DNA of 55,592 nt, taken from positions 1 through 55,592 of IMG/VR virus record IMGVR_UViG_3300046690_000366; one strand, written 5' to 3'. The notes beneath the pieces were generated by a model. That model made no database searches. It was not told where the DNA came from and was given only the letters and a program-made list of their open reading frames with translations. The DNA is from a virus. The position numbers were made by a program, and so were the translations under genes. Shown in pieces: positions 9,601 through 39,218 of the stretch. Positions within the stretch are counted from its first letter, which is position 1. The number at the start of each line of letters is the position of its first letter.

Positions 9601-9838
9601 CGAACAAACCCAGAGAGTGCCCAAACGCCTCCAGCAACAAGGCGTTGACGAGCCTTACACCTGGGCCGAGTTTGCCGCCACCAAACTTCCCATTCCCATT
9701 GCCGAAGGGATCAAGGAAGGCTTGCGAGGGTCGGGAATGCCCGAGGACCAAATCAAGTATTGGCTAAAAGCCGCGGCTGTCACCTCGCTGATGACCGCTA
9801 CGGGAACACGAATAACCGAAGACACCAGAGAGGAATAA
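6623..9838 (+). CDS. large internal (ejected) virion protein
   Basis: 1071 residues, starting at the ATG that overlaps the previous stop. Residues 1-20 carry two acidic PWxxY/WTEY repeats, a motif seen at the N-terminus of large polyvalent phage proteins. A long Pro/Ala/Glu-rich linker (about 195-300) is followed by an Ala/Lys/Glu coiled-coil region (about 330-560). A C-terminal domain of about 480 residues has alternating hydrophobic helices, as in proteins that pass DNA through the cell envelope. Its size and position after the tail genes fit a podoviral internal core or ejection protein. A transglycosylase motif was looked for and not seen. Confidence 0.6.
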   Translation: MSEAAPWEDYSTAVEEGPWTEYSAQPEQPAEKPLTKQIAEGFQRGQALVAPLTASMRIPGQLLDKAADYIFPSRKPLVPPETFKKIITGLTGGVEEPGTTGEVVKDWTAEQLSGLTHPKVLLPAIIAKRFPITRAPIGGYFAAQTAESAPEAAQQIVQGVQEKDPEKAVRGTLGLAASVAIPAAIAKGLRTEIEPSGIKPTEEPSPTPKAPEVPAEAQTGVTPTELPLPVAPEAPPAPPAPETTITPPPPPESAPQTAQVPPAATPEPAVEAGPGGAGPGTPHITEVPETGAGGEKYGIAERVREERAKAGQVEPVEPGQGINTPDSIERGREIIRADPESAPKLMAAFEADPAKNISADSMAVARAHGEALAAGARNIEERFGTESPEYEAAKKALSDWDKRSKPMQTEWQKIGMAQQGETDIDTGSFTGLERAREQSTGQGIPEEKIPTAKKIAAGNKSAQDAVNKASQKLSQRIQGRTDAEKAAFDAANKTVREWAIKRAELENKARVAQAGRDKQVADIQLKRAQKAEAAAQKVVRDMAARAAKEARRRQGDPSIAVWEKANKYLEENQGLYNFDDLRNKIATDLGMKPSQVTYWLSKDAVTKKLADDLWLKQRNARRLKEAAKTWLRELDTPGYMKALGSIPRAMFGLSVFGHGFVALGTHAPMLAFQPRFWGAYVRNFGKMYKMVFSPTYYEAQMADLVRRPNYAKANRSGLQNNPHQYEEYHTTAMRDLVTGWIGEKNINRIDNLASAGNRGYGVLKLLRQDVWDQKYNKLPDSVSKQEGVAEALSDDVNHVTGVTRAGAPRGSNLLLFAPRLAGSRVMWLGGDPIRAAKTVANWKKASTAERVFAVNQMREKGWVLGTFASLLALNQGVLTGSGSKQKINGIPESLGGAGFDPLAADFMKFKALGGNIAYGGATLTMAKLPARVAMAILYDGKGSKYILEDERVDKVIGSYVRSQMSPFAGTMYDLATGRDYEGRPLPAKLFGTVEQTQRVPKRLQQQGVDEPYTWAEFAATKLPIPIAEGIKEGLRGSGMPEDQIKYWLKAAAVTSLMTATGTRITEDTREE

Positions 9839-9840
9839 AT

Positions 9841-10017
9841 ATGCCCGCAGTCAGCTCCAAACAGCAGCGTTTCATGTCAATGTGCAAACACAACCCCAAG
9901 CACGCCTACGGGAAGTGCCCGTCCATGAAGGTGGCCAGTGAGTTCTCTCACAAGCCTAAAGGTGGCTACCGCAAAAAAAGGGTGGTTCCGCGCAAAGACA
10001 GCCGCGGCTTTTATTAA
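9841..10017 (+). CDS. small basic phage protein, DUF3008-like
   Basis: 58 residues. The N-terminus MPAVSSKQQRFMSMC follows the pattern MPAxSxxQQRxxGM of a widespread short basic protein family of phages and bacteria (DUF3008-like). The C-terminal half is Lys/Arg-rich. The function of the family is unknown; nucleic-acid or virion binding is plausible from the charge. It starts two A/T bases after the previous stop and ends overlapping the convergent gene by four bases, so it closes the plus-strand late block. Confidence 0.7.
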   Translation: MPAVSSKQQRFMSMCKHNPKHAYGKCPSMKVASEFSHKPKGGYRKKRVVPRKDSRGFY

Positions 10018-10517
10018 GCGGGAGAAGGCTTACTTGGACAGCGGATTGTCCCATCGCGATTGGGAGAGACGGGAGCCTGATGCTCGTGCATCTCGACTCC
10101 GAGATCTACATAAGCTCGCTCCCCAGGGAGTGGCTTGTGACGTCGAGACTTCTTGCGTTCCCGCTGTTTCGCCTCCCGGTTCTGTTGACGTCGCGCTTCC
10201 TCATCCCGTATCGCCATGTACTTCGCCCCGTTGACCACGCGGTAATTGAATTGCCCGAGCCGAATTAGCCTCCTTCCTTCTTCTTCCCTGCTCCTGCTTT
10301 CCGGGTCCGGTTCGCACAATCGCTCAATGACGCCCACAACGACGTCCTCACTCTCACCGAGAATGAACCCGAGGAGTTTTGGGTTCAATTCCACCTGCGC
10401 CCCAACCTGAGAATCAGGCTTCATGTGGGCTATGACGTATCCCCAAACGGCAAACATCGGACTACCGGCCCCTACGAGCGAACCGCTATACATCGACTCA
10501 AATATTCGGCCATACAT
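10014..10517 (-). CDS. replisome-organizer-like DNA-binding protein
   Basis: 167 residues. The first 90 residues (MYGRIFESMYSGSLVG, then a winged-helix-like core ending CEPDPESRS, EEGRRLIRL and RVVNGAKYMAIRDEE) match a widespread phage family annotated as replisome organizer or replication protein. A basic Arg/Lys/Gln linker follows. The frame is open to a TTG at 10556, but that TTG is part of a TTGACA -35 box, and the family N-terminus begins at ATG 10517, so that ATG was chosen. The gene then starts almost at the predicted transcription start. GTCAGC repeats lie just upstream. It converges with the plus-strand gene that ends at 10017. Confidence 0.75.
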   Translation of the reverse strand: MYGRIFESMYSGSLVGAGSPMFAVWGYVIAHMKPDSQVGAQVELNPKLLGFILGESEDVVVGVIERLCEPDPESRSREEEGRRLIRLGQFNYRVVNGAKYMAIRDEEARRQQNREAKQRERKKSRRHKPLPGERAYVDLGVEMHEHQAPVSPNRDGTIRCPSKPSPA

Positions 10518-23540: not shown

Positions 23541-25340
23541 TTGAGCACCCAACTCAAGTACGGAAATACATGGCCGGCAGACGCCAGCGCGGTTGAGATT
23601 GAACGCTCCTGTATCCGTAAGGGAGGAAAGTGGATTGGTAAAAAGACGGGGAAAGAGTATGGCGCAGGACTCTTCACTCACTACCGGAACCTGGAAACAT
23701 TGTTGTGGCCCGAGGACGATCATCATCGGTGGAGCGACCTTCAGTTGCAGAACATCATTGATAACCGGATCACGGTGATCGGCGGAGCAAGAGATTCAGG
23801 AAAGACCTGGGGCGCTTCCAAATGGGCGTTGTGTGATTACTGGTGTTTCCCTCAGGAGACCTTGTTCCTGATGACGTCCACCACCATGCAAGGTCTGGAG
23901 CAACGGATCTGGGGTACGATTAAGAAATTGGTTCGAGCAGCCAGAGAACGTTACCCGCAGTTGGAAGGAAGTGTCGTGGACGCCAAGCACGGGTTATTCA
24001 CCGACGACATATCGGGAGACGCCGAGATCCGCGACATGAACAAGGGGATCATCGGGATACCCCTTCTTTCAAGCCAGGACGAGTTCATGGGGATGGCGCT
24101 TAAGAACTTCGCCGGGATCAAACAAGTGAGACGGAGATTGCTAGGGGACGAGCTTCAGTTCATTCACGTCGATTACCTGAAGGTGTTGGACGCGATGGAT
24201 AAGGGCGATTTCAAAGCCATCCTCTTAGGAAACATGATTGCCAATAACGGCAAGGCTTTAGATCGGGTGAGTGAACCCGTTGAGGGGTGGGCTAACCAGA
24301 AGGAACCCACCAAGACTTCCGTGTGGAAGAACAAGTACCACGGGATCACCGTCAATCTGGTCGGAACCGACTCGCCTAACTTCGATGCCTCGACCAGGAA
24401 CGCTTACCCATATTTGATCGACCAGAAAGACGTGGATACCGTGGCAGCTCGACCGGGAGGGAAAGATTCCGTTGAATGGTGGAGCCTCATCATGGGCATC
24501 CGGAAAGCTGGGGCCATCAGCGACCGCGTGCTCACCGTTGAACTGGTCAACGCCAACAACGGGTTCAAAGATGTGCTGTGGGAGACAGAGCCTACGTTGA
24601 AGATTTACGGAATAGACGCAGGGTTCGGTGGGGACGCGTGCGTATCGACCTACATCGAGTGCGGGACAGAGGTTGGTGGGAGAGAAGTCATGAAGTTTGT
24701 GGAACAGAAAGTAATCCCCGTGACTGTCTCCGGAGGAACCACCGCGGAGGATCAGATTGCAACGTATGTCCGAGCCGACTGCGCGATGCTCGGGGTGCCG
24801 GATTCAAATGTGTTTGTCGAGTGCGGGATGAGGGCGACGTTAGCGGTCTCCTTTGGAAGAATAATGACTCCCGCCATTAACGCGATTAACTTCGGTGGAC
24901 CGGCGACACAGCGTCCGGTCTCAAATGATCTTTTTGTGTTCGACGAACGGACACAGGAACGACGGTTAAAAACTTGTTATGAACACTACTCGAAATTTGT
25001 TAGCGAGCTTGCGTTTAATGTCCGAGCAGTCGTTGAGTCTGGCCAGGCGCGTACATTCCCAATGCGCTCGGCTGAAGAGTTCCAGAAACGGGAAACCCGA
25101 TTCGTCTATGGCGACCGCCATGAAATCGAAACCAAATCGGAATACAAAGCGAGGAACGGGAGCGAAAGCCCGAACTACTCGGACTCCACAATGGTTGCGG
25201 TCGAAGGGGCCAGGAGGTTGGGGTTCGTTATTGAAAGGCTAGCCGAAGGCGGAGGTTCGTCACAAGATGACTGGCTGGCACTTGAAATAGATACCTACTC
25301 AACAACTCAAAAGAAATACGAACTAAATTACGGAGTATGA
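23541..25340 (+). CDS. terL: terminase large subunit
   Basis: 599 residues. Walker A GGARDSGKT (81-89), Walker B RRLLGDE (198-204, Asp203, Glu204), and a nuclease domain with YGIDAGFGGD (Asp359) and SPNYSDST (Asp548) give the full terminase layout, which packages DNA into the procapsid and cuts it. The start appears to be TTG 23541, preceded by AGAAAGAG; no better in-frame start was found. The end overlaps the HNH/AP2 gene by ATGA. Small terminase was not identified with certainty (see 21073). Confidence 0.9.
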   Translation: MSTQLKYGNTWPADASAVEIERSCIRKGGKWIGKKTGKEYGAGLFTHYRNLETLLWPEDDHHRWSDLQLQNIIDNRITVIGGARDSGKTWGASKWALCDYWCFPQETLFLMTSTTMQGLEQRIWGTIKKLVRAARERYPQLEGSVVDAKHGLFTDDISGDAEIRDMNKGIIGIPLLSSQDEFMGMALKNFAGIKQVRRRLLGDELQFIHVDYLKVLDAMDKGDFKAILLGNMIANNGKALDRVSEPVEGWANQKEPTKTSVWKNKYHGITVNLVGTDSPNFDASTRNAYPYLIDQKDVDTVAARPGGKDSVEWWSLIMGIRKAGAISDRVLTVELVNANNGFKDVLWETEPTLKIYGIDAGFGGDACVSTYIECGTEVGGREVMKFVEQKVIPVTVSGGTTAEDQIATYVRADCAMLGVPDSNVFVECGMRATLAVSFGRIMTPAINAINFGGPATQRPVSNDLFVFDERTQERRLKTCYEHYSKFVSELAFNVRAVVESGQARTFPMRSAEEFQKRETRFVYGDRHEIETKSEYKARNGSESPNYSDSTMVAVEGARRLGFVIERLAEGGGSSQDDWLALEIDTYSTTQKKYELNYGV

Positions 25341-25825: not shown

Positions 25826-26487
25826 ACACATCACAAACCCCACCGGGTGGTTGGCAGTTCCATCAGCCTCAAACCGGATGGAGCGCACCATTCCCGGTCG
25901 GCAACACCCACGACCAGCAGGTGGTCAACATCATCAAACATCGGTTAGCCAACCCAGCAGTCACCGCCAAGCACAGGCTGGCGACTGACTTCAACAATGT
26001 GGCCAACGAACTTCAGCGGTTTACCGAGATGCGACTGGGAATCCCAGCCGCCCCAAAATCTATGCCCCCGCCACCGGAACAACCGCACGTCGCGGGGGCT
26101 GTTGCGGAGGCGGTTAGGAATGTGAAGAAGTTGGCGTCAGGTGCTGCTCTATTGCTGGAATGGCAGGAGAGTGGGGGGTCGCCGGTGCCACCGGACGTAT
26201 CCGCGGCGCGCGCTGAGATATGCTCGTTCTGTCCCAAGAACGATACCAAGAAAGGGCTGACGGCTTATTTCACTACTCCAGTGGCTAACGAGATTCGGAA
26301 GAAACTTGAGAAGCTACACGCGTTAAAGCTATCGACCCCCAGCGACAGCACACTAGGAACCTGCTCGGCGTGCCTATGCCCACTACCATTGAAAGTGCAT
26401 ACACCACTTCACCTAATCCTGAGTCGGCTCAAGCAAGACCAGAAGGCCGACTTGGACCCAAGGTGCTGGATACTGCGAAGAAATTAA
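25822..26487 (+). CDS. conserved Cys-rich phage protein
   Basis: 221 residues. An N-terminal Pro/Gln-rich stretch, then ICSFCPKND and LGTCSACLCPLPLKVHTPL followed by DPRCWIL; this layout is common near glycosyltransferases in phage structural modules. It probably binds zinc through the two Cys clusters. The function is unknown. The last 25-118 bases overlap the next gene. Confidence 0.5.
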   Translation: MNTSQTPPGGWQFHQPQTGWSAPFPVGNTHDQQVVNIIKHRLANPAVTAKHRLATDFNNVANELQRFTEMRLGIPAAPKSMPPPPEQPHVAGAVAEAVRNVKKLASGAALLLEWQESGGSPVPPDVSAARAEICSFCPKNDTKKGLTAYFTTPVANEIRKKLEKLHALKLSTPSDSTLGTCSACLCPLPLKVHTPLHLILSRLKQDQKADLDPRCWILRRN

Positions 26488-27188
26488 AAGTCCTGGTGGT
26501 TTACATTGCGGTGACGCACGGACCCATCACGGCGAACTATTGCTCACGGTTTGTTGGATCTTGGATAGTAAACCCTCCCGGAGTTGATTGTGATCTGGTC
26601 GTCTCCTGCAACGGTGGGCCACTGGCCATCGAAACGGCGATGTTGTTCCTTCCACTGCAAGCCAAGTTCTACCCTCGATCCAACGATCCTGGCTGGGACA
26701 TCAGCGCCTTCCTGGACATCGTGAGAGCGTTTGAGTGCGACATGATCTGTTGCCTCGGTGAATCAGTTTACTTCCACCGCCCCAACTGGTTAAAGAGAGT
26801 AGTGGATACGTGGACGCGGTTTGGTCCAGGGATGTATGGGTTCTTCTCTTCTCACGCCGGCAACGCGCACCTGAACACAACGGCGTTCTGTGTGGACCCG
26901 AAGTATTTGAAAGGTTATCCCCATGTCAGCACACACGCCCAACGCTACGAGTTCGAGCACGGACCCACAGCGTTATGGCGCAGAGTCCATTCCTTTGGCG
27001 CTCCGGTTATGCTGGTGACCTGGGACGGAGCGTGGAAACCGGGACAGTGGAGACAAGGCAAGAACATCCTTTGGCGCGGCGACCAGACCAACTGCATGGT
27101 GTGGGCTAATCACGTTGACCGTTACTGGGCGGCGGCGCCGTTGACCAAGGCCAAGTGGGCTAACCGATCCGACCAACCTTTCCGGTGA
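26463..27188 (+). CDS. glycosyltransferase-like protein (first paralogue)
   Basis: 241 residues from GTG 26463; an ATG at 26370 would add 31 residues within the preceding gene. A GT-A-like core starts KLKVLVVYIAVTHGP, with GVDCDLVVSCNGG and a YFHRPNWLKRVV motif, then HVSTHAQRYEFEHGP. The downstream gene has the same order of motifs. It probably transfers a sugar to a phage or host surface target. The DxD metal site is not clearly seen, so the enzyme class is tentative. Confidence 0.5.
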   Translation: MLDTAKKLKVLVVYIAVTHGPITANYCSRFVGSWIVNPPGVDCDLVVSCNGGPLAIETAMLFLPLQAKFYPRSNDPGWDISAFLDIVRAFECDMICCLGESVYFHRPNWLKRVVDTWTRFGPGMYGFFSSHAGNAHLNTTAFCVDPKYLKGYPHVSTHAQRYEFEHGPTALWRRVHSFGAPVMLVTWDGAWKPGQWRQGKNILWRGDQTNCMVWANHVDRYWAAAPLTKAKWANRSDQPFR

Positions 27189-27901
27189 AGATCTCAGTTA
27201 CCTATCCACTCCCGTTCTACAACGCCGAGGTATGGTCGGAGTTTAAGCCATACACCGTTAGATTCTGTGAAACGTGGAACAAATTCCCGCCAGGAATAGA
27301 TTGCGTTCTTAACGTATGGGTGATCCGTGGAGTAATTGATGATGGAATCATGTCCATGTTTCAGGGGCTGCCTGTCGTGTTCAATAATTACAACGGTCCT
27401 GGGTTTCACATCAGCGCACAGCAGCAGAGTGCCACGGATTCAAAGGAAAATTGTTTTGAAGTTAATTTCACAAGCCGTTGTTACTTCCATAGATCTGGAT
27501 GGCTAGAAAGGTACTATCTTGCAAGAGGGCAATACGGACCTGCACTCTATGGAATAGCGGACTCATTGGACTCCCATCATCATCTTTGTACTAGGGGACA
27601 CGCCTACGACACGGATGATATGAAACAATACCCTCATCTGATTGACAGCAGGATAAAGGAATACTTTCAGGAGTCGGGCGAGGGTTGTCTTTTGGACTGG
27701 TTCAGGTCAATCGGCAGGAAGGCATACATTGTTTCTTGGTCTGGAGTTAGAGAGGTTATTGATAGGCCCGTTGAAACCGAGAACGGTTGGAGATGCGGGG
27801 ATCAGAGCGACGTTTTAATATGGGATAAGCACAGTGACATATATGCCAACGCCAGCGATGCGGACAAAGCCAAGCTCCATCGCATCTGCTATGGACCATG
27901 A
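27185..27901 (+). CDS. glycosyltransferase-like protein (second paralogue)
   Basis: 238 residues from GTG 27185, with a GTGA overlap. It shares YFHRSGWLERYY, a GxYGPALYGIAD segment, a QYPHLIDSR segment and GDQSDVLIWDKH with the upstream gene, so the two are diverged duplicates. Both lie in the glycan island between terminase and portal. Confidence 0.5.
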   Translation: MKISVTYPLPFYNAEVWSEFKPYTVRFCETWNKFPPGIDCVLNVWVIRGVIDDGIMSMFQGLPVVFNNYNGPGFHISAQQQSATDSKENCFEVNFTSRCYFHRSGWLERYYLARGQYGPALYGIADSLDSHHHLCTRGHAYDTDDMKQYPHLIDSRIKEYFQESGEGCLLDWFRSIGRKAYIVSWSGVREVIDRPVETENGWRCGDQSDVLIWDKHSDIYANASDADKAKLHRICYGP

Positions 27902-28584
27902 AACTCGCCGTGTTCTATCACGCCCGCATCAGTGGAGGATCGGCTAATATCAACCCTGAGTTTGGCAAGCTATTGCTCAAGCACCAGTTGGATGCGCTGG
28001 TCAACAGCGGTCTTTACCAAGCGGCGGATGAGATCATGATCGGACTCAACGGCAGTGAGGAGGATTATCATTACGTCAGCAAACATTGTCCGGAGGACAT
28101 CTGCGTGCTGTGGCACGGGAAAGATTCCGAGTCGCTTTTGCCCACGATGCGGTTTATTCAGGAAGTGGTGCCCGACATCAAAGACCATCATTGTTTGTTC
28201 TTCCACACCAAAGGTGTCACACACCCGCACAGCGCCATTGATCGGGCTTGGAGAGAGTGCATGGAGAATGTGTGCATCACTCACTGGCATAAGTGCGTGT
28301 CCGATTTGGACAAAGGCTATGACACCGTGGGTTGCCATTGGCTGACTCCGGAACGGTTTCCGGGAATGGTGAAGAGTCCGTTCTGGGGCGGGGTGTTCTG
28401 GTGGGCGACATCCAAGTTCCTGTCACGGCTGCCGAAGCTGACAGAGAAAAACCCAACGTGCCGGGAGGAATGGTTTATACCAGAGCACTGGATTGGGACT
28501 GGGCCAAGGCCGAGCGTGAGAGACTATCACCCCTTCTGGCCAAGTGAGAGAGGCTGTTCACAAGCAAAACATCTATGCATATAA
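27898..28584 (+). CDS. glycosyltransferase-like protein
   Basis: 228 residues. The HTKGVTHPHSAIDRAWRECM, GYDTVGCHWLTP and FWGGVFWWATS motifs match a family of phage and bacterial glycosyltransferase-like proteins. An N-terminal KLAVFYHARISGG strand precedes a Rossmann-like fold. The start overlaps the previous stop by ATGA. It probably acts with the adjacent transferases and methyltransferase on one glycan. Confidence 0.6.
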   Translation: MKLAVFYHARISGGSANINPEFGKLLLKHQLDALVNSGLYQAADEIMIGLNGSEEDYHYVSKHCPEDICVLWHGKDSESLLPTMRFIQEVVPDIKDHHCLFFHTKGVTHPHSAIDRAWRECMENVCITHWHKCVSDLDKGYDTVGCHWLTPERFPGMVKSPFWGGVFWWATSKFLSRLPKLTEKNPTCREEWFIPEHWIGTGPRPSVRDYHPFWPSERGCSQAKHLCI

Positions 28585-29279
28585 AAGACCTGTTTCATGC
28601 TGTAGGACCATGGACCACGATGTTCAATGTGGACGGAGAGGCGTGCGGCGGAACCGAGGACAAGGAACACGACCCTGTGTTACTATGGGAACTCGAAAAG
28701 ATCGGTGGGTGCAAAGGTAAGAACATAGTAGAGCTTGGCCCTTACGAAGGGGGACAGACGGTCGCGCTATGCCGAGGGGGAGCCAACACCGTTATCGGAA
28801 TTGAATCAAACCCAAATGCTTACGTCAGGTGTTTGGTTACTAAGCGGGTGATGAATCTGCACAACGCCGAGTTTGTTTATGCCGATGCGGCCAAGTTGTT
28901 GCCCCTGTCCAAGCATCCACCTATCGACTTCGTGCTGGCTAACGGTGTCCTGTATCACCAGCGAAATCCCGCCAAGCTCATCTATGACTTGGCAGAGATG
29001 ACGGACGCAGTGTTGGTGTGGACGCAAGTCGCCAATGATACAAGCCCAAGCAACCTCTCCGCTCATTGTGAAGTTGACGAGAAACTATATCACGGGCGAT
29101 TAAACACTTACGGCGAGCGTAAGCCTGAGTTCAGCGGTGGACCCAACCCGACTTCACTCTGGTTATTTCCTGAGGAGATGCGGAGATGTTTCAAGGAAGC
29201 GGGGTTCAACAACTGGATTGAGAAACCGTGCTTTGCCAACGGTCACGGAGATTGCATGTTGTTCGTCGCACGGAAATGA
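28575..29279 (+). CDS. SAM-dependent methyltransferase
   Basis: 234 residues. VELGPYEGGQTVALC followed by VIGIESNP is the class I SAM-binding motif (motif I, with the acidic residue at the end of strand 2), and DFVLANGVLYHQRNP is the motif IV-like acidic loop. It probably methylates a sugar or other small group in the pathway of the neighbouring glycosyltransferases. It overlaps the previous gene by ten bases. Confidence 0.65.
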   Translation: MHIKDLFHAVGPWTTMFNVDGEACGGTEDKEHDPVLLWELEKIGGCKGKNIVELGPYEGGQTVALCRGGANTVIGIESNPNAYVRCLVTKRVMNLHNAEFVYADAAKLLPLSKHPPIDFVLANGVLYHQRNPAKLIYDLAEMTDAVLVWTQVANDTSPSNLSAHCEVDEKLYHGRLNTYGERKPEFSGGPNPTSLWLFPEEMRRCFKEAGFNNWIEKPCFANGHGDCMLFVARK

Positions 29280-29884
29280 AGATCACTTTCATCGTATCTT
29301 CGTACGACCGTCCGGCGATGCTTCGACTGATGCTGTCGTGTCTTCAAGTGCAGACAGAGAAAGACTGGGAATGCATCATCGCCAACAACAATCCTTACCC
29401 AGCACAGAACAGCGAGCAGCAATGGGTCATATCCCAGTTCAACGATCCCAGGTTCATCTACAAGAACCCCAAGCTCAAGGACGCCTACGAATCAATATGG
29501 GCACTGGCGCCCGAGTCTCGTGGAGATTGGCTGTGCTTTCCCAGTGATGACTGCTACTACGTCCCGCAGTTCGCGGAGAGGATGTGGAAGTTGGTAACAT
29601 CAAACCCCGCCTTCGACTTTGTGTATTGCGACATGATTTACGACCCTCGACCAAGTGAAGGCCGAGACTGGTATGCTGTGGTCAACACTTCACCCAATCA
29701 AGGTGCCATCGACAAGGCGGGGTTTCTGGTCCGAAAATCCTTGTTCCTCAAGGTTGGATGGAGAAACGTGGAAGGACAAAGCGCACTGCTACAGGGGAGT
29801 CGGGACGGTATGTTGGCCGAGGATTTAGCCAGGAGAGGAACACCGATGGTTAAGGCCAAGGGGATCATGCTGGTTCATAATTAG
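29276..29884 (+). CDS. family 2 glycosyltransferase
   Basis: 202 residues from ATG 29276 with an ATGA overlap. The N-terminus KITFIVSSYDRPAMLRLML is the standard start of a GT-2 (GT-A fold) domain; DWECIIANNN, PSDDC (likely DxD metal site) and GWR in the middle fit it. It completes an island of four transferase-like enzymes and one methyltransferase between terminase and portal. Confidence 0.75.
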   Translation: MKITFIVSSYDRPAMLRLMLSCLQVQTEKDWECIIANNNPYPAQNSEQQWVISQFNDPRFIYKNPKLKDAYESIWALAPESRGDWLCFPSDDCYYVPQFAERMWKLVTSNPAFDFVYCDMIYDPRPSEGRDWYAVVNTSPNQGAIDKAGFLVRKSLFLKVGWRNVEGQSALLQGSRDGMLAEDLARRGTPMVKAKGIMLVHN

Positions 29885-29921: not shown

Positions 29922-32243
29922 ATGAGATTTCAAAATGTCGGTGAGGTTGAGCAAGTCGTTTGGAATGCGAGACTAGCCGACCTTCCACGCGCGGAGAACC
30001 GGGCCATCCTGCAACGTACGTATAATGGGGAACCGCCTTATGACAAGAACAAGGACCAGGAGAACTCACGTCAGGTCAACCGCAACTTCCTGCACGGTAC
30101 TCGAGTCATCAGCGAAGCACGGAGACAGTGGAACGGCGGGTTCCTTCGCCCATCGAATTACTTCTCAGTGACAGTGGACTCTGGTCCCGCCCACAAACGA
30201 TCTGAGTGGCAGAGAACTATCACCCGACACATCAACCGCCAGTTGAAGCGCGACTCGAACATGATGGAGCAGGTGAGGGCGACCGGAGCACAGGTCATGC
30301 TTCACGGGATTGGACCGGTGGTGTGGACTGATAGGCGTGATCCGATACCACGTCCCATTCCCATAGCGTCGCTGATGATTGCCAGCGAGACAGACATTGA
30401 TTTCAGAAACCTTGATTGGTACGCCATGTTTCAAGAGTGGACTCCGACGCAGTTGTACCAGATGACGCACGGTCCCAAGGTCGATCCCGGATGGAACATG
30501 AAAGCGGTGGACGCGCAGTGGTCTTACATGCGCGAGCAACTCCAAAAAGAGCCGAACTCCACTGCGTATCAATACATGCCGGAACGCATTGAAGAGTTGG
30601 CCAAGCAAGACCTAGCCTTTTGGGGAAGTGACGCCGTTCCTACGATTGACGTGTGGGATGTGAAGTTCCGGGATGACGAAGATGGTAGTGGTTGGTATCG
30701 ACGGATATTCCTCGACTGGAACGTAGGCGAAGGGGAGATGAAGTCTTACAAGGAATCAGGTGGAAGACCCGAGACACAGAACAAGGAAGGATGGCTCTAC
30801 ACCAGCGGCAAGCGGAAGTATTGCGATAACCTATCCCAAGTCTTGCACGTTCAGTATGCCGATACCTCGTGCTTCGCGCCGTTCAAGTATCACTCCGTCC
30901 GGTCCCTTGGCTGGATGATGTGGCCGGTCGTTGATTTGCTCAACCGGCTCAACTGTCAGTTCACCGAGAACGTGTTCATGAATTTGCTCTGGTGGTTTAG
31001 AGCCGCCAGCAAGCAGGACTTCGACAGGGTGAAGAAAGCCATGTTCGAGCACATGGGAGTCATTCCGCAAGGAATAAGCATGATCAGGGCGGAGGAACGG
31101 TTTAAGCCCGACCCCGCCCTGCTCGAACTCGCCTTCGGTTCATTCCGACAGACCATCTCCGAGAATGCCGCATCGTTCACGCAAGACTTCGACAAGGGCA
31201 ACTCAGGCAAAGAGATGACTGCGACGGAGACCATGGCGAGGATCAACAACACCAACGCACTGGTGAGCGGGATGTTGGACCTGGCTTACAAGTATGCGAT
31301 CCCCCAATACCGTGAAATCAGCCGCAGGTTCTGCTTGCCCAACAGTCCATACAAAGCGGTGAGAGATTTCCGCCTAGCCTGCCTCAAGGACGGTGTGCCG
31401 GCTGAAATGCTGGATGTGGAGAAGTGGGAAGTTGAACCTGACAAAGTAATGGGCGGCGGCAACAAGACTCTAGAACTTGCCATCGGCAATCAGCTTCTTC
31501 AGATCCGCAAGAACCTTGGACCGGACGCACAGAGGAAGGTGGACCACACCTACATCGAAGTTGTCACGGACGATCCCGCGGTAGCCGAGGACTTGGCACC
31601 ACTCAAGGATCAGAAGATGTTGTCGCCATCAAAGCATGACGCTCAGTTGTCCACCGACCGAATATTACGCGGGCTCAAGTTCGATATGACACCCGAGATG
31701 GTTCCCGAAGATTACGTGGTGGTGTGGCTCGGAGACATGGCGGCTCTCATCCAGCAATATCAGCAGGCGCCACCGGACGTGAAGGAACTGGCGGGCATGG
31801 GCAACTTGGGCCAGCACATCGGAGTCGCTCTCCAACAAATGGCTGGTAACGATGATGAGAAGCAGAAGGTCAAAGAGTTTGGAAAGGTGCTCTCCGGTCT
31901 GATGAAGAACTTGCACGACATGGCGGCACAGCTCCAGAAGCAACAAGCGCAGCCACAGGACAACGGCGGAGTGGACGCCAAGACCGCAGCAACCCTCAAG
32001 GGCAAGATGATCATTGACCAAGCTAAGGCGGCGAACACCCGCGAGAGCCACGCGGCACGCACGGCGCAACGGCAGGCTCAATGGGAACTGGAGCAGCAGC
32101 GTAAAGATAGGGAGTTGGCTAACGACATGCGGCGTAAGAACCTTGAGGCGCAGCAGGAGCTTGGGGTCAACGCCATCAAAGCGATGCAGGAGGTCCACCA
32201 TAACCGGCTGAAGAGCCTTAATGACGATGCCGGAGGGGAATAG
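29922..32243 (+). CDS. portal protein
   Basis: 773 residues, the first structural gene after the glycan island. Helical core with NRNFLHGTRVISEARRQWNGG near the N-terminus, a beta-rich clip region around 230-330, a long helix at 440-500, and a C-terminal helical region ending in a Gln/Lys-rich coiled coil (640-765) as in large podoviral portals, which extend a barrel into the head. Order terminase - portal - scaffold - capsid supports it. Confidence 0.75.
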   Translation: MRFQNVGEVEQVVWNARLADLPRAENRAILQRTYNGEPPYDKNKDQENSRQVNRNFLHGTRVISEARRQWNGGFLRPSNYFSVTVDSGPAHKRSEWQRTITRHINRQLKRDSNMMEQVRATGAQVMLHGIGPVVWTDRRDPIPRPIPIASLMIASETDIDFRNLDWYAMFQEWTPTQLYQMTHGPKVDPGWNMKAVDAQWSYMREQLQKEPNSTAYQYMPERIEELAKQDLAFWGSDAVPTIDVWDVKFRDDEDGSGWYRRIFLDWNVGEGEMKSYKESGGRPETQNKEGWLYTSGKRKYCDNLSQVLHVQYADTSCFAPFKYHSVRSLGWMMWPVVDLLNRLNCQFTENVFMNLLWWFRAASKQDFDRVKKAMFEHMGVIPQGISMIRAEERFKPDPALLELAFGSFRQTISENAASFTQDFDKGNSGKEMTATETMARINNTNALVSGMLDLAYKYAIPQYREISRRFCLPNSPYKAVRDFRLACLKDGVPAEMLDVEKWEVEPDKVMGGGNKTLELAIGNQLLQIRKNLGPDAQRKVDHTYIEVVTDDPAVAEDLAPLKDQKMLSPSKHDAQLSTDRILRGLKFDMTPEMVPEDYVVVWLGDMAALIQQYQQAPPDVKELAGMGNLGQHIGVALQQMAGNDDEKQKVKEFGKVLSGLMKNLHDMAAQLQKQQAQPQDNGGVDAKTAATLKGKMIIDQAKAANTRESHAARTAQRQAQWELEQQRKDRELANDMRRKNLEAQQELGVNAIKAMQEVHHNRLKSLNDDAGGE

Positions 32244-32301
32244 CGAACTGGACGATGACGGGTTGCCGGAAGATTTCCATGACTGGGAAGATGACGAATG
32301 A
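32221..32301 (+). CDS. 26-residue acidic mini-protein
   Basis: ATG 32221 (or 32227) to TGA 32301: MTMPEGNSELDDDGLPEDF, then DWEDDE. Thirteen of 26 residues are acidic. The end overlaps the next gene by ATGA, and the start lies within the end of the portal gene. Coupling favours coding. A role such as a capsid or ejection cofactor is unknown. Confidence 0.4.
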   Translation: MTMPEGNSELDDDGLPEDFHDWEDDE

Positions 32302-33590
32302 AAGAGATTAGCGACGTAACGGCTTGTGTTGTGGACAGCGGCTTGTTCTTGCCTCTAGCACATTGCATGGCAGAGAAGTGCAAGCGAACTCTCTACTGGT
32401 CACCGGACGTCCGTGCGTTCCCATCGGTGAAGCAGGCGTGCATCGGGGATGGGTTCAGCGACATCGAACGGGTCCGCGACTTCTGGTCTGAGTTGAATGA
32501 CATCGACCTGTTCGTGTTCCCCGATATTGGGCAAGCAGCACTTCAAGCCCATCTCAAGTCCATAGGAAAAAGTGTTTGGGGTTCGGGAGACGGCGACGTG
32601 CTAGAATTGAACCGTGAGAAGTTCATGCGAGTTCTGGCTAAGGTTGGTTTGGATGTGCCTGAGTTTGAAGTCGTGGTAGGATGGACCAACCTCAGGCATT
32701 ACCTTCAAGACCAAGAGGACTGTTACATCAAGATCAGCCGTTACCGCGGTGACATGGAGACGACTCACTGGAGGTCGTGGTCACAGGACGAGAACTGGAT
32801 TAACTGGCTGGCGGTCAACTTCGGTTCGGTCAAAGAACACATACGGTTCCTCGTGTTCAAGAGTATCGACACTGACTTGGAGATTGGCGGCGACACGTAT
32901 TGTGTTGGTGGACGGTTCCCCGACAAGATGCTCAATGGCTTGGAATGGAAGGATAAAAGCTATTTCTCCGCGGTGACACCCACGGGAGAGATGCCTGACC
33001 AACTCATTAAGGTCATGGACGCCTTTGTTCCGTTCCTTACCGAGGTTCACTATACCAACCAATGGTCAATGGAAGTTCGGGTGCAGGACGACAAAGCCTA
33101 CTTCATCGACGCCACCACGAGAGGAGGAATGCCATCCAGTGGTTCACAGCAACTTATCTGGAGTAACTTCCCCGAGATTATCTGGGCTGGGTCCAACGGT
33201 GAATTAGTCCAACCAGAGCCCGCCGCGCAGTTCTCCATCGAGTGCATGATTACCAGCAAGTGCGGCAAGGATTTGTGGGACGAAGTGGAGATTGATCCTG
33301 AGCTGATCCCGTGGGCACGGTTTTCCAGTTGCGCTTACATCGACGGTCGCTACTGTTTCCCACCGGACGAATTTCATGAGGGAGAATTGGGTTGGCTGGT
33401 GGCTCTAGGAGACACTCCCGCTGAAGTCCTTGCCCGTATAAAATGCCTGGCCGACCTTCTTCCGGATGGCCTAAACGCTGACGTGGAAGCTCTGGCTGGA
33501 GTCATCAAGGAAATCGACCAAGCCAAAGAGGAAGGTATCCCGTTCACCGATCAACCCGTTCCTGACCCTGCCACGGTAATTGAGGATTGA
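32298..33590 (+). CDS. ATP-grasp superfamily enzyme (PurD-like)
   Basis: 430 residues. A Rossmann-like N-terminal domain (VVDSGLFLPLAHCMAEK, VFPDIGQAALQAHLKS) precedes an ATP-grasp core: NREKFMRVLAKVGLDVPE (~105-120), a YIKISRYRGD nucleotide-binding strand, WSMEVRVQDDK and FIDATTRGG, where Glu and the Asp/Arg of the last motif are expected metal and phosphate ligands. ATP-grasp enzymes join carboxylates to amines or thiols. It lies between portal and scaffold, so the target may be a virion protein or a small metabolite; both are inference. Confidence 0.65.
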   Translation: MKEISDVTACVVDSGLFLPLAHCMAEKCKRTLYWSPDVRAFPSVKQACIGDGFSDIERVRDFWSELNDIDLFVFPDIGQAALQAHLKSIGKSVWGSGDGDVLELNREKFMRVLAKVGLDVPEFEVVVGWTNLRHYLQDQEDCYIKISRYRGDMETTHWRSWSQDENWINWLAVNFGSVKEHIRFLVFKSIDTDLEIGGDTYCVGGRFPDKMLNGLEWKDKSYFSAVTPTGEMPDQLIKVMDAFVPFLTEVHYTNQWSMEVRVQDDKAYFIDATTRGGMPSSGSQQLIWSNFPEIIWAGSNGELVQPEPAAQFSIECMITSKCGKDLWDEVEIDPELIPWARFSSCAYIDGRYCFPPDEFHEGELGWLVALGDTPAEVLARIKCLADLLPDGLNADVEALAGVIKEIDQAKEEGIPFTDQPVPDPATVIED

Positions 33591-33803: not shown

Positions 33804-34082
33804 ATGATACGCAGCCCAAAGGAACGGTTCATTGCCAGTGCATCGGCTTCAGTGTTCCGCAAGATGGCCACGTCTTTTGAATTTGAAGAGGCTGCGGTCG
33901 CCGCCATGATTGAAATGGAGCGGGACATGCCGATGGACTGTTCTCCAAACCAAGCCGCCGATGCTCACAACCAGATGGTTGGAGCGCGCAAGTATCTCGA
34001 TAAGCTTGTGACAATTTACCAGCCAGAAGTGACATCCGAAGAACCCACTCATCCAACACTCAACTACGAACACGGAGTATAA
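33804..34082 (+). CDS. small head-module protein
   Basis: 92 residues. Helical, with FRKMATSFEFEEAAVAAMIE and an acidic core; starts one base after the previous stop. It may be a scaffold partner or decoration protein; not recognised. Confidence 0.5.
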   Translation: MIRSPKERFIASASASVFRKMATSFEFEEAAVAAMIEMERDMPMDCSPNQAADAHNQMVGARKYLDKLVTIYQPEVTSEEPTHPTLNYEHGV

Positions 34083-34084
34083 TT

Positions 34085-35347
34085 ATGCCAGCTATCGCAG
34101 CACCACCTTCACCGAGCGCAACGCCCACAGCCGGGGTTGCCCCCACACCAGCCCCGGCTCCTATCGTCGAGAAAGAGCCGTCGTCCTACATGGCCGACGT
34201 GGAGTCGGAACTGTTGGAGATGACGCGTGATCCTCAACCCGAGAAGGAGGCAGATGAACGCCCAAAAGGCGAACGTGTCAGGGGTGCGGACGGGAAATTT
34301 ACGAGCGAACCCGAGCCGCCCAAAGAAACGGAGAAGCCTGGCACCGAACCTGTCTCTGGAAAAGAAACAACCGAAAAGGTTGAGGACAAGCCCAAGCCCG
34401 GAACCTTCGCCGCCCTCCGCAAGGCCCACGAAGAATTGCAGAAGAAGCGGGACACCGAATGGCATCCCAAGATCCAAAAGCTTGAGTCCCAGGTAAAGTC
34501 CTACGAACAGAAGATCCGGGATCTGGAAACCAACTCACCGGCACTCCAGCCGATGCAGGATAAGTTGTCGGCCATCGAGAAAGAGAACAACGCTCTCAAG
34601 GAGGAGATTCGCTACGTCAACTACAAGAAACACCCTGAGTTTGTCGATAAGTATGAGAAACCCTACAACGAAGCGTGGTCCAAGGCTGTGTCAGAGGTTA
34701 CACAACTTAGTATGGAGATGGAGGATGGCACGGTGCGAAAAGCCACCGCCAGTGACTTTCTGGCGCTTGCGAACGCGCCGCTGGACCAACTCGACGATCT
34801 TGCTGCGAAGTGGTTCCCGAAGTCATCGGCGCGTGTGATACGCCACGTAGAGAAAGTCCGTGACTTGGCCGATCAACAGGAGAAAGCCCTTGATGACGCT
34901 AAGAAGAACGCCGGCACACGAGAGTCCGAGATGGTAAAGCAAGCACAACAGCGGGACGCCACTATCACCCAGGTGTACAAACAAACGAACGATGAACTTG
35001 TTAAAAAATATCCCAAGTGGTTCGCTCCAGAGGAAGGAGATGCTGAAGGCAACACGGCGTTGGAGAAGGGTTATGAGTATGCTGATAGTGTGTTCGGGGG
35101 CAATGGCACTCTGGCGCCTGAACAGAAGGCGAAGAGACTTGCGGTTATACGCGCCAAAGCAGCCAGCTACGATAGGCTGGCGCGCAGGCTCAAGGCGCGG
35201 GAAACCCGAATAGCTGAGTTGGAGAACTCACTGGCTGAGTATGAGAAGAGCGAGCCAACCACACAAGAGACGGCTGTGCCGGGAACGGTTGCAGCGGGGA
35301 ACTTCTTTGAAACCATCGAGCAGGAGATTCGCGCACTTGCCAAATGA
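34085..35347 (+). CDS. scaffolding protein
   Basis: 420 residues. A Pro/Ala-rich disordered N-terminus, the RVRGADGKFT motif typical of phage scaffolds near residue 65, then a highly charged helical rod (100-400) with coiled-coil heptads. The position between portal and capsid and the charge pattern fit a scaffold that guides capsid assembly and leaves before packaging. Confidence 0.75.
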   Translation: MPAIAAPPSPSATPTAGVAPTPAPAPIVEKEPSSYMADVESELLEMTRDPQPEKEADERPKGERVRGADGKFTSEPEPPKETEKPGTEPVSGKETTEKVEDKPKPGTFAALRKAHEELQKKRDTEWHPKIQKLESQVKSYEQKIRDLETNSPALQPMQDKLSAIEKENNALKEEIRYVNYKKHPEFVDKYEKPYNEAWSKAVSEVTQLSMEMEDGTVRKATASDFLALANAPLDQLDDLAAKWFPKSSARVIRHVEKVRDLADQQEKALDDAKKNAGTRESEMVKQAQQRDATITQVYKQTNDELVKKYPKWFAPEEGDAEGNTALEKGYEYADSVFGGNGTLAPEQKAKRLAVIRAKAASYDRLARRLKARETRIAELENSLAEYEKSEPTTQETAVPGTVAAGNFFETIEQEIRALAK

Positions 35348-35676
35348 GAATCAAACCACTCACCGGACACGTTCTAATAAAGGTTCTTCCACCCGACACC
35401 GTAACCAGTGGCGGGATACAGATACCCAATCACACTTTTTCTCCTGAAGAGCAGCAGCAACGCGCTCATCACCCTGAACCACCACCACCTCTTAAGTGCA
35501 AAGTCTTAGAAATAGGTCCGTGGAAGAAGTTAAAGAACGGGCTGGCTTTACTGCCTCCGTTCACGACTAACGCCACCGTACTTATCCGCAATGGCAGCGG
35601 TAAACCACTCAACTATGGTATGACAGAAGAGTTGAGATTGGTGAGGAATGAGGATGTGCTAGCCGTACTCACCTAA
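35344..35676 (+). CDS. GroES-like co-chaperonin
   Basis: 110 residues. MRIKPLTGHVLIKVLPP and a mobile-loop GGIQIP, then VLEIGPW and LRLVRNEDVLAVL line up with the Cpn10 fold, including the GGI motif that docks on GroEL. A 20-residue His/Pro insert sits after the mobile loop. Phage Cpn10s (T4 gp31, RB49 CocO) help fold the capsid protein, so its place just before the capsid gene is suggestive. ATGA overlaps the scaffold stop. Confidence 0.75.
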   Translation: MRIKPLTGHVLIKVLPPDTVTSGGIQIPNHTFSPEEQQQRAHHPEPPPPLKCKVLEIGPWKKLKNGLALLPPFTTNATVLIRNGSGKPLNYGMTEELRLVRNEDVLAVLT

Positions 35677-35875: not shown

Positions 35876-37471
35876 ATGGCAGACATCAGTTGCACAAAAT
35901 TTGCAGATTATATTTCCCGCCGTTCAGAGCATCTCGACGACATGATCATCATGTCCATGCATCCATTGGATTCACAGTGGATTGGCCACGTATCCACCGG
36001 ACGATTCAAGGCCGAGGACGGCGTTGAGCACACCTTCGACCGGTTCGAGAACGTATTTCCCAAGCTGGGTCCATGGGCCGATGTGCGCGCCGCGTCCTGC
36101 GTAGGAGCACCCTGTTACAAGCCCGGCACCAAGGTTGGTCTGGGATTCACTCGGGACAGCTACAAGTTGCAGGAAGCGCAGTATGAGACAGACCTGTTCT
36201 GCTGGGACTTGATTCTGTCCGCCGACCGAGCTACGCAACAGTTCGCTCATTTCATCAAGGTTCTCCGCAGAATTTCCACAATCGTCTGGTCCCACCGTTT
36301 CCGCACTGAAGCTTTGAGGATTGCCAAGTTCCGCTGGGTGTGCGCGAACAACACGCTGGTCCCTGTGACCGCGGCGTGGAACACGGCTATGACGCAACTG
36401 ACTTTGACTCCTACTGTGGCAGGCACCGACTCGCTGCCGACGTCCGCACTGGGCGCACGCCACTTACAGCGCCGGGTTGACCCGCAGATTCGGTCCGGAG
36501 CAGAAGGCCCGACCATCAACAAGCAGATGCAGCCGATGCTGGAGCTTGTGACCACGATGGACACGATATGGAACCTGACTGAAGGCGACCCGCAACTGGC
36601 CGACCATTGGCGGTTTGCCCTGTTCGCTGACGCCACCAAGTACTACAAGTACGGCTGGACTGGTTCCTGTGGTAACTTCGGTCTCCGCGCCGACGCTTAC
36701 CAACTTCGGTTCAACATCCACTCGCACGACGCCGGCACAGGTGTCACTGTGCTCGATGTGGTGTTCCCTTACACGAACATCGCCGCGACCGAAGGCATCA
36801 AGGAAGATGTGAACCAGGACTTCGACACCGCGCGTGTTGAACTGGACTTCATCTGGCACCGAAAAGCGATGACATCGCTGGTCCGTGACGCCAAAGCTAT
36901 TAACCCCGAGATGCCGTTTGCCGCGCGCGACTTCGCCGGTAAGTGGCAGTTCGTCATGGACAACCTGACGTGCGGGACGGGTGTGGACGCCAACGGTTTG
37001 GTTTTCCCGATCCCTGTGAACAACGAACGGAGGAACCAAGGCAAGTTCATCACCGACTTCGGCGGGGCTATCCAAAGCGAATACCCCGAACTAGCGGAAG
37101 CGTTTATCTCACTACGCGGACCCGCCTGCATCGTGGACATCCCGGTATGTCCCGCCGATCCTGGCTATCCTTCGCAGAACTACGAGAGCGCCAACGCGGC
37201 TTGCGCGACGGTCGCCATCAACATCGTTCAGACTCCGATTCTGGACACGGCTACGGGCACCTACGAGATCCCGATGAACACGGTTCTGTGCAACGGCATT
37301 CAAGTCGTTCACGACGCCGTTACTGGAACGGCTACGGTTGCCGCACTGGTTGTTCAACTGAACAGCGTCCTTGGTTCATTGGGAACGTGGACGGTCAGCG
37401 GTGGCACCAACATTTCTCTGAGTACTACATCCTGCACGAGCATTGGAATGCCGTGGAGCGATACGGCCTAG
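35876..37471 (+). CDS. major capsid protein
   Basis: 531 residues, no Shine-Dalgarno (A/T-rich leader ending TTTCT). The order scaffold - co-chaperonin - this gene - terminator, the size, and the mix of helices and long strands fit a HK97-fold major capsid protein. A Thr/Ala-rich C-terminal 90 residues (from about 440) looks like a decoration or insertion domain. No motif alone proves the fold. Confidence 0.7.
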   Translation: MADISCTKFADYISRRSEHLDDMIIMSMHPLDSQWIGHVSTGRFKAEDGVEHTFDRFENVFPKLGPWADVRAASCVGAPCYKPGTKVGLGFTRDSYKLQEAQYETDLFCWDLILSADRATQQFAHFIKVLRRISTIVWSHRFRTEALRIAKFRWVCANNTLVPVTAAWNTAMTQLTLTPTVAGTDSLPTSALGARHLQRRVDPQIRSGAEGPTINKQMQPMLELVTTMDTIWNLTEGDPQLADHWRFALFADATKYYKYGWTGSCGNFGLRADAYQLRFNIHSHDAGTGVTVLDVVFPYTNIAATEGIKEDVNQDFDTARVELDFIWHRKAMTSLVRDAKAINPEMPFAARDFAGKWQFVMDNLTCGTGVDANGLVFPIPVNNERRNQGKFITDFGGAIQSEYPELAEAFISLRGPACIVDIPVCPADPGYPSQNYESANAACATVAINIVQTPILDTATGTYEIPMNTVLCNGIQVVHDAVTGTATVAALVVQLNSVLGSLGTWTVSGGTNISLSTTSCTSIGMPWSDTA

Positions 37472-37825: not shown

Positions 37826-38218
37826 ATGATTGTTGAAACCGATCCATGCTCGATAAGTGAACTGACACCCGACTCAAAATGTTTCCGGTGCCTTAGCCCG
37901 AGCCAGAAGAGAATCGCCACCGTATGGTTTATGGCGCAACTGTTGAAGCTCATTGACGGAGCCGACTACACCGATGTGAATGACTTGATGGAAGCCTCCA
38001 AATGTTTGAAGTGCGAGCCTGACTCCACATTGGAAGACTTTGAAATCGTCATCTGGCTCAACGCGGCGATGGACGCTGGACTGAGCGCCATGACTCTGGC
38101 CGAGGTGCAGGCGGCAATCAAATGCTTCTTCTGCCTTGATCCCAAAGCCGTAAAAGCTGCCAAGACGCTGCTCCTCTGCCGAATTTCAGCTATCCAATCT
38201 GCACCGATAGTCCTGTAG
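37826..38218 (+). CDS. CxxC-repeat protein (three units)
   Basis: 130 residues with three copies of a repeat: SKCFRCLSPSQKR, SKCLKCEPDSTLE and IKCFFCLDPKAVK, each CxxC then a helix. Related units occur in the next two genes. It starts at ATG after TGA-TTT. Probably helical with cysteine-stabilised turns; the role is unknown, perhaps structural. Confidence 0.6.
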   Translation: MIVETDPCSISELTPDSKCFRCLSPSQKRIATVWFMAQLLKLIDGADYTDVNDLMEASKCLKCEPDSTLEDFEIVIWLNAAMDAGLSAMTLAEVQAAIKCFFCLDPKAVKAAKTLLLCRISAIQSAPIVL

Positions 38219-38270
38219 TTTTTCCCTACATACCGTATGACAAACCTGTATCCTGCTACCGGGAGGTTTG

Positions 38271-38867
38271 ATGGCTGATTGTACTCCGAAAACTTTGCTG
38301 GAAGGAGCCAAGTGCATACTGTGCATGACGGAGAAGCAACTGCTCGCCGCGATGGTGAGCATCATGTGCGAGGGATCGCCAGCCGGAATCGCTTGTCCAT
38401 CCTTCAATAATCTGGTCTGGGATGACCCGGTAGACAACCTGGTCCTGCCGCAGTCCGGTCCCGCTCCCAATACCGGCTCTGCCACTGAAACATTCCCTTC
38501 ATCCAACGCAATCAGGTTGGTGGCCAGCGCCACGATGACGGTGATTGGACAGCAACTCAACTTCTCAAACACCAACCAGAACTCGCCCCTGACAATTCCC
38601 GACACTGGATCAAGCTGCAATGTGAGCGTCAACATCCGCAGCGTCTCCGGGTTCACGACCTACGACGTGAAGATTTGGGATGTGGGATTTAACAACAACT
38701 ATTTCGATACCGGATTGATTGTTGTCGGCGCTACCGGAACTACCACCTACCCATTTGTCCTTCCTGCTGGGCTCACGCAAGTCGTCTGCCAGATTATCGT
38801 TCAATGCGGACAACCTAACCCTCCGCTATCCGGAGCAATCGACATTCAAGCCGACTTTGGAGTATGA
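38271..38867 (+). CDS. CxxC-repeat protein with beta domain
   Basis: 198 residues from ATG 38271, with a strong GGGAGG site upstream. One repeat unit (CTPKTLLEGAKCILCMTEKQ) at the N-terminus and a beta-rich C-terminal domain of about 140 residues, like a carbohydrate-binding or decoration fold. The shared N-terminal repeat suggests a common anchor for different head domains. Confidence 0.55.
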   Translation: MADCTPKTLLEGAKCILCMTEKQLLAAMVSIMCEGSPAGIACPSFNNLVWDDPVDNLVLPQSGPAPNTGSATETFPSSNAIRLVASATMTVIGQQLNFSNTNQNSPLTIPDTGSSCNVSVNIRSVSGFTTYDVKIWDVGFNNNYFDTGLIVVGATGTTTYPFVLPAGLTQVVCQIIVQCGQPNPPLSGAIDIQADFGV

Positions 38868-38870
38868 GCA

Positions 38871-39218
38871 ATGCCTGACTGCACACCATCAACTTTAACT
38901 GAGGCATCAAAGTGCCTTAACTGTCTCACTCACAAACAATTACTCGCCGTATCGGTTTACATCAACTGCACTGCTAATGGTATGGACTGCACACCGGAAA
39001 CTTTATTGGAGGGGGCCAAGTGCCTCTTGTGTATGACTGAGAAACAACTGATCGCCTCGCTGGTGTACGTCCTGTGCCAGAGCGGTGGAGGTTCATCTGG
39101 AGGAGGTGTATCCTGCGGTGCCTCCGACCCTGTGGATACTCCCACAACAACCTGCGCGGTATATATCAACACGACCACAGGTAGAATCTGGTGGTATTAC
39201 ACAGGACAATGGAACTGA
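38871..39218 (+). CDS. CxxC-repeat protein (two units)
   Basis: 115 residues with two repeat units: CTPSTLTEASKCLNCLTHKQ and CTPETLLEGAKCLLCMTEKQ, then a Gly-rich linker and a short TTGRIWWYYTGQWN tail. It resembles the previous gene, so the set of three expands one module. The role is unknown. Confidence 0.55.
   Translation: MPDCTPSTLTEASKCLNCLTHKQLLAVSVYINCTANGMDCTPETLLEGAKCLLCMTEKQLIASLVYVLCQSGGGSSGGGVSCGASDPVDTPTTTCAVYINTTTGRIWWYYTGQWN

Follow-up and report, generated by a model that had tools for sequence, protein, structure and literature searches.

An ATP-grasp enzyme encoded beside the portal gene of uncultivated phages, with a candidate portal-tail motif and acidic micropeptide as partners

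In the Pup/PafA system, a small acidic tag that ends in Glu or Asp is conjugated to Lys residues of target proteins by a ligase of glutamine-synthetase-like fold. Other peptide partnerships involve the ATP-grasp superfamily, as in graspetide synthetases, which are ATP-grasp ligases paired with short precursor peptides (PMC8939145). The R2K clade of this superfamily (CDC123 and R2K.2/DUF4343) is predicted to modify proteins and has phage members; it is defined by the absence of the linker Lys, a second basic residue after the strand-2 Lys, and the lack of the ssxGbGl motif (PMC4431377). Among phages, LUZ24-like viruses (UFV-P2) encode a 291-aa ATP-grasp protein alongside an amidoligase and a glutamine amidotransferase, as early genes on the other strand (PMC3890496), and jumbo phages also carry ATP-grasp genes (PMC7824862). 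We found no precedent for an ATP-grasp gene tied to a portal in the literature searched, a provisional result given that many subscription papers lie outside it. To our knowledge, enzymatic ligation on a portal protein has not been described so far.

We analysed a 55,592-base virus record (the window, meaning the whole stretch of DNA), in which a plus-strand ORF with an ATG start, at 32298-33590, encodes a 430-aa product. The features of the surrounding region, all on the plus strand, are as follows.

23541..25340, plus strand: terminase large subunit (phrog_2, E 2.5e-13)
29922..32243, plus strand: portal protein gene, 773 aa (profile match to a second portal family)
32196..32240, plus strand: codons of the portal C-terminal tail HHNRLKSLNDDAGGE (motif of the R-[LMF]-K-S type)
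32227..32301, plus strand: gene for the acidic micropeptide PEG, MPEGNSELDDDGLPEDFHDWEDDE, unannotated (profile and selection)
32298..33590, plus strand: ATP-grasp enzyme, 430 aa, PurD-like fold (model and residue conservation)
32730..32762, plus strand: predicted nucleotide-binding loop K145-T155 (KISRYRGDMET), the intein site of locus L012
33072..33134, plus strand: predicted metal-binding region E259-P279 (E259, D271, T273, R275, P279), the intein site of locus L124
33587..33802, plus strand: small gene, present in five loci including the window
33804..34082, plus strand: conserved small gene 5' of the scaffold gene, found directly after the portal gene where the ATP-grasp gene is absent
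34085..35347, plus strand: scaffold-like coiled-coil protein (position and composition)
35344..35676, plus strand: phage-encoded Cpn10/GroES (PF00166, E 3.4e-9)
35876..37471, plus strand: putative major capsid protein (position and conservation; no family match)

A first-pass annotation of the window had proposed a PurD-like ATP-grasp enzyme within the head module. The placement holds, as the gene follows the portal gene and lies two small genes ahead of the scaffold-like gene, and the four motifs quoted for it (NREKFM, YIKISRYRGD, WSMEVRVQD and FIDATTRGG) were all found in the 430-aa ORF. Relatives at 30-62% identity were identified in more than 80 other loci (at least 80 viral loci of uncultivated viruses, and three in MAG contigs); this recurrence, together with 13 residues invariant in 82/82 copies, rules out a chance frame. 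The ORF matched no Pfam or PHROG model, and 50,697 phage records contained no relative of the enzyme, nor of HEL, a second slot protein considered below; three divergent enzyme relatives, searched against the same records, returned one single chance-level match. The enzyme family is therefore an annotation gap.

The proposed architecture was confirmed at the level of fold. An AF2 model based on 33 sequences (pLDDT 92.5, pTM 0.91) showed the same fold as an earlier low-depth model (5 sequences, pLDDT 70.6). Foldseek ranked PurD/GAR synthetase first (1vkz, E 7.8e-19), and VIA-align superposed the model on PurD 3lp8 over 370 residues (Z 29.3, rmsd 3.3, 12% identity), with lower Z scores elsewhere (24.7 and less for PurK/PurT, about 22 for biotin carboxylase). 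The best TM in a viral structure library was 0.47 (by query length), with no near relative among the matches listed. Searches of the PDB with phmmer and hmmsearch recovered just biotin carboxylase, with the right motif yet at a non-significant E of 0.2-0.9, and hhalign against three PurD sequences was likewise not significant (prob 1.3%, E 0.042). Since the sequence-only links are not significant, the ATP-grasp assignment rests on structure and residues.

Among 82 non-redundant copies, K145, R150, E195, G197, D199, E216, K218, E259, R261, D271, R275, P279 and N290 are invariant. Three hallmarks of an ATP-grasp enzyme are in place, namely the fold, the nucleotide-strand Lys (K145, 82/82) and the acidic pair (E259 and D271, 82/82); of the two outcomes that would have counted against the first-pass annotation, neither a loss of the metal-binding Glu/Asp pair nor a failure to match ATP-grasp folds was observed. 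Position R106 is Arg in 78 copies and Lys in 4, and T273, at the Asn position of the metal motif (E ... D/E-x-N), is Thr in 71, Cys in 10 and Ser in 1.

Two copies of the enzyme are interrupted by inteins with LAGLIDADG matches (E 8e-4 in L012 and 6.5e-5 in L124). One splits the predicted nucleotide-binding loop (KISRWRGD|CETTHW; L012 6381-8849) and the other the metal-binding region (FTDPT|CRH; L124 10442-12790), so that two different predicted active-site motifs are occupied. Inteins are typically found where functional proteins have conserved motifs of the active site. Because the predicted catalytic residues are invariant and inteins sit in two active-site motifs, we read the gene product as an active enzyme, which would probably perform ATP-dependent carboxylate-amine ligation.

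By fold and catalytic residues the enzyme belongs to the ATP-grasp superfamily, and not to PurD itself. The whole-chain fold is common to both (VIA Z 29), and the PurD motif E-x-N-x-R-x-G-D-P aligns with D271-x-T273-x-R275-x-G-x-P279 (a sequence match that is not significant), such that E, N, R and P of the PurD 'LEFN-R-GDPE' region correspond to D271, T273, R275 and P279. However, identity is 12-15%, the PurD glycine-rich loop is absent, and the PurD signature R-[LF]-G-D-P-E is replaced by R275-x-G/P-x-P279, which lacks the Asp and Glu. The PurD model PF01071 had no match in the window and matched in 13/14 control genomes; a true PurD was rejected by this test and by the signature. The settings also differ, as the phage gene stands behind a portal gene.

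The phage enzyme is a possible member of the R2K clade, with which it has other features in common. In both, the loop after the strand-2 Lys lacks ssxGbGl, and the phage enzyme carries K145 and the extra invariant basic residue R150. In contrast, R2K proteins lack the basic linker residue, where the phage enzyme has Arg or Lys (R106), and the nearest folds of the phage enzyme are instead PurD, PurK and PurT. R2K Pfam models matched none of the 13 enzyme members scanned, and placement in a head module was not seen in the consulted portion of PMC4431377. The LUZ24-like phages likewise encode an ATP-grasp protein, although theirs lies in the early region and the one studied here in the head module.

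For the portal, we identified a tie to the enzyme that is conserved in position. The gene at 29922-32243 is called a portal because its family profile matches a second portal family (A6; hhalign 94.7%, E 5.7e-8), whose own matches include phage proteins with a portal annotation. In a survey of gene neighbours across related phages, such as the first-pass annotation had advised, the enzyme gene lay behind the portal gene on the same strand in 67/67 loci with the window's portal family, at a distance of -20 to 2014 nt that mostly holds just small genes. It was also found behind A6-type portals, directly before a phrog_156 portal (L085) and near an SU10-type portal (L081); four divergent loci (L027, L028, L077 and L080) had no recognised portal beside it. 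Enzyme and portal similarities were uncorrelated (rho 0.04), indicating that the enzyme gene has been exchanged between phages and that its place beside the portal outlasts this exchange.

The enzyme is nonetheless optional. A portal-based search for enzyme-free relatives yielded 96 non-redundant portals, 69 with the enzyme and 27 without, and 14 changes of presence or absence are needed on the portal tree. In the enzyme-free phages the small gene and then the scaffold gene come next after the portal gene, and the enzyme was not found anywhere in the whole records of 25 of the 27.

The C-terminal tail of the portal differs with the presence of the enzyme. Typical tails with the enzyme are NRLKSIED, NRLKSLNDDAGGE, NRFKSLTDE and SRLKSLSE, whereas K, E, P, T and A abound in those without it. 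Of the last 12 residues, two or more were hydrophobic in 53/69 portals with the enzyme versus 0/27 without (Fisher 5e-13), leaving 16/69 enzyme-bearing phages that fail this test of a motif noticed post hoc, after the data were viewed. In 13 independent sister pairs, on average 10.5 agreed and 0 opposed (sign test p ~0.001), and a control stretch (portal residues -60 to -31) did not differ with the enzyme. A strict expression, R[LMF][KR][SATM], matched 25/69 versus 1/27 (median sign p 0.016), which is weaker than the composition measure. Across seven head and packaging proteins, the last 12 residues of the portal were the most different (9e-12), followed by the putative capsid protein (2.6e-5). 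The codons of the motif vary synonymously; the signal therefore lies at the protein level, and an RNA-level cause is unlikely.

The closest relatives that show this contrast are L138, which has the enzyme-bearing insert, and L109 and L102, which do not. Their portal DNA is 82-83% shared up to ...EIRR, past which L138 reads SRLKSLSE and L109/L102 read ERAKADNEPETTAE and GRAKAKHESETTTE. In the A6 portal family the C-termini look alike whether or not the enzyme is present, so generality of the tail signal to that family is not supported, and the association of tail subtype with enzyme subtype was not significant (partial r 0.07; 41/500 shuffles as high). In one close relative of the enzyme-bearing phages (L140, portal 8001-10307), the enzyme is gone and an RLKL tail is retained, perhaps reflecting a recent loss of the enzyme.

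Where the slot between portal and enzyme is short, it is occupied by a tiny acidic ORF, PEG, which would be missed by normal gene calling because it is tiny and overlapping. In the window its start lies within the final codons of the portal gene, in another reading frame, and its stop codon TGA shares bases with the enzyme ATG (ATGA). When 22 such peptides were built into a profile and the 80,838 six-frame segments of 166 loci were searched with it, 28 matches scored at least 9, and 28/28 lie in the portal-enzyme slot; untrained matches include L083, L045, L047 and L023, from phages with the other portal family. The sole match without an adjoining enzyme sits near a contig end (L157), and the enzyme, predicted from PEG, was then met at the opposite end of the same record.

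The 28 peptides have a median length of 24 (about 13-43 aa) and average 49% Asp plus Glu, with Asp or Glu as the C-terminal residue in 26; 22 have no Lys, and 8 have no Lys, Ser or Thr at all. Between L014 and L073 the 19 residues are identical at a pS of 1.15 (saturated) and a pN of 0, and most pairs have a pS of about 0.5-1.2 and a pN of 0.05-0.3. These computed values show purifying selection on the predicted peptide at the protein level.

The alternative slot protein, HEL, is about 126 aa long, with invariant H48, E49, E52, D67, D70, H97 and E104 (HExxE), and often overlaps the enzyme start. It was found only with the enzyme (36/69 versus 0/27 in clustering, p 2e-7), including beside the enzyme of the distant locus L080. 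PEG and HEL, in 28 and 39 of 82 enzyme loci, never occur together (p 2e-11), 15/82 have neither, and the enzyme tree shows frequent swaps, with 28 label changes; HEL was not found in the window. The weak family matches of HEL (Fe_dep_repr_C, 3e-4, in 7/37 members; Peptidase_M78, 0.05) hint at a metal-binding protein. Its gene is found at L002 7567-8004 and in about 40 further loci, only alongside the ATP-grasp gene.

Two further proteins were found only in the portal-enzyme slot. One is a small basic protein with the C-terminus ..KVKS.LP/KKHVLP (L083 3510-3797, L153 8016-8231, and L033, L047, L068 and L072), whose end (..RVKSxLP or KIKKHVLP) resembles the portal tail motif. The other, in few phages, is a SET-domain protein of the lysine methyltransferase type (PF00856, E 3e-9; L024 4540-4953 and L041 3493-3909).

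The fold, the conserved residues, the adjacency to the portal despite exchange, the co-variation of the tail and the protein-level selection on PEG were computed here. From these we infer that the protein is enzymatically active, which molecules serve as donor and acceptor, when it acts, and a benefit to the virion. We favour, at close to even odds (a probability of about 0.48), a catalytically competent carboxylate-amine ligase of PurD architecture that would work at the portal during head assembly, with the portal tail, PEG or both as substrates. Mg-ATP, held by K145, R150, E259 and D271, would phosphorylate a carboxylate, and an amine would attack the acyl phosphate to give an amide. The basic-hydrophobic portal tail (R-[LMF]-K-S...) may be the recognition site, the amine acceptor or both, while PEG, nearly always ending in Asp or Glu, may be the carboxylate donor or the molecule modified; HEL takes its place in PEG-free phages and may serve the same step. 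Candidate carboxylates are the C-terminus or side chains of PEG, the acidic C-terminus of the portal itself, or a free amino acid; candidate amines are the Lys of the portal tail or a small amine. Weighing against this reading are the post hoc choice of the tail motif, the lack of a tail contrast in the A6 family, the 16/69 enzyme-bearing phages that fail the tail test, the 15/82 with neither PEG nor HEL, and the four divergent loci whose enzyme gene has no recognised portal beside it.

The first-pass annotation had suggested that the enzyme may modify a structural protein or make a small ligated product. Both ideas have gained a candidate, the portal tail that co-varies with the enzyme and the peptide PEG respectively, with activity and substrate still conjectural. 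The change of the tail with the enzyme, a pattern read from gene comparisons, suggests that these phages may chemically modify a head protein during assembly. A more specific version, which we consider unlikely, is that the ligase joins a PEG carboxylate to the Lys of the R-[LMF]-K-S tail during head assembly, with HEL as an alternative partner. This would resemble pupylation through an unrelated enzyme fold: in both systems a small acidic peptide ending in Asp or Glu is encoded next to a carboxylate-amine ligase, with conjugation of PEG being conjecture, whereas PafA has a glutamine-synthetase-like fold and the phage enzyme an ATP-grasp fold without a proteasome link.

The main sceptical reading is that the tail is passively carried. 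The tail would ride on a mobile cassette with its junction in the final codons of the portal, PEG would be a leader ORF coupling translation of the enzyme to that of the portal, and the enzyme would act on another substrate. The way in which PEG or HEL overlaps the enzyme start, at ATGA, fits this, as does the end of DNA similarity between L138 and L109 within the last portal codons. Yet selection on the amino acids of PEG, with pN far below pS, is left unexplained; tail type shows no significant link to enzyme type; and L140 kept its tail after losing the enzyme, indicating that enzyme loss is not always the physical removal of the tail. We regard this account as rather unlikely, albeit worth keeping in view.

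That PEG is a ribosomal precursor, made into a small modified peptide for virion or host as in graspetide or pheganomycin pathways with the portal a mere neighbour, seems to us distinctly unlikely. A short, conserved peptide gene that overlaps an ATP-grasp gene and averages 49% Asp/Glu donors recalls graspetide loci, where ATP-grasp ligases are likewise coupled with short precursors and an Asp/Glu-rich peptide gene adjoins the ligase (PMC8939145). However, graspetide precursors use Lys, Ser or Thr acceptors, of which most PEG peptides have few or none (22/28 without Lys, 8/28 without all three), so that internal side-chain macrocycles would often be impossible; the phage enzyme further differs in its PurD-like fold and head-module location. 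HEL stands in PEG's stead in about half of the family, and the association with the portal tail would go unexplained.

An auxiliary metabolic ligase for small molecules (purine, amino acid or cell-wall chemistry), simply located in the late region, would suit the nearest fold, PurD being a metabolic ligase, but we hold it to be improbable in view of the lost GDPE signature, the silence of PF01071 in the window against its matches in 13/14 control genomes, an adjacency to the portal that survives exchange, and the peptide partner and portal-tail association. Least probable of all is a non-catalytic assembly factor, in which the ATP-grasp fold would serve as a chaperone or virion protein binding the portal tail: the constant position of the gene among those for assembly, close to a phage GroES, speaks for it, and the tail association would also be compatible with mere binding, but the predicted catalytic set is fully conserved down to about 30% identity and inteins occupy two active-site motifs.

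The preferred reading, of a ligase acting at the portal, concerns a widespread, optional and apparently active enzyme, for which enzyme-free sister phages provide natural controls, and a candidate substrate motif in the portal tail and a candidate peptide in PEG are at hand. It raises the testable question of whether, in some tailed phages, an ATP-dependent ligation completes the packaging vertex.

We additionally noted variable gene content around this module. The terminase-to-portal cluster of the window (26370-29884), which varies among relatives, holds a class I methyltransferase (28575-29279), a family-2 glycosyltransferase (29228-29884) and proteins without a family; in L001 the cluster includes a radical SAM protein (2139-3224). 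A GroES/Cpn10 gene, between the scaffold and putative capsid genes in the window, was seen in roughly 19 of the 86 related loci, at times at the opposite side of the module. Past the putative capsid gene, adjacent genes at 37826-39218 encode Cys-rich repeat modules (..CTPxTLLEGAKCLxCMTEKQL..) that are conserved in 28 loci.
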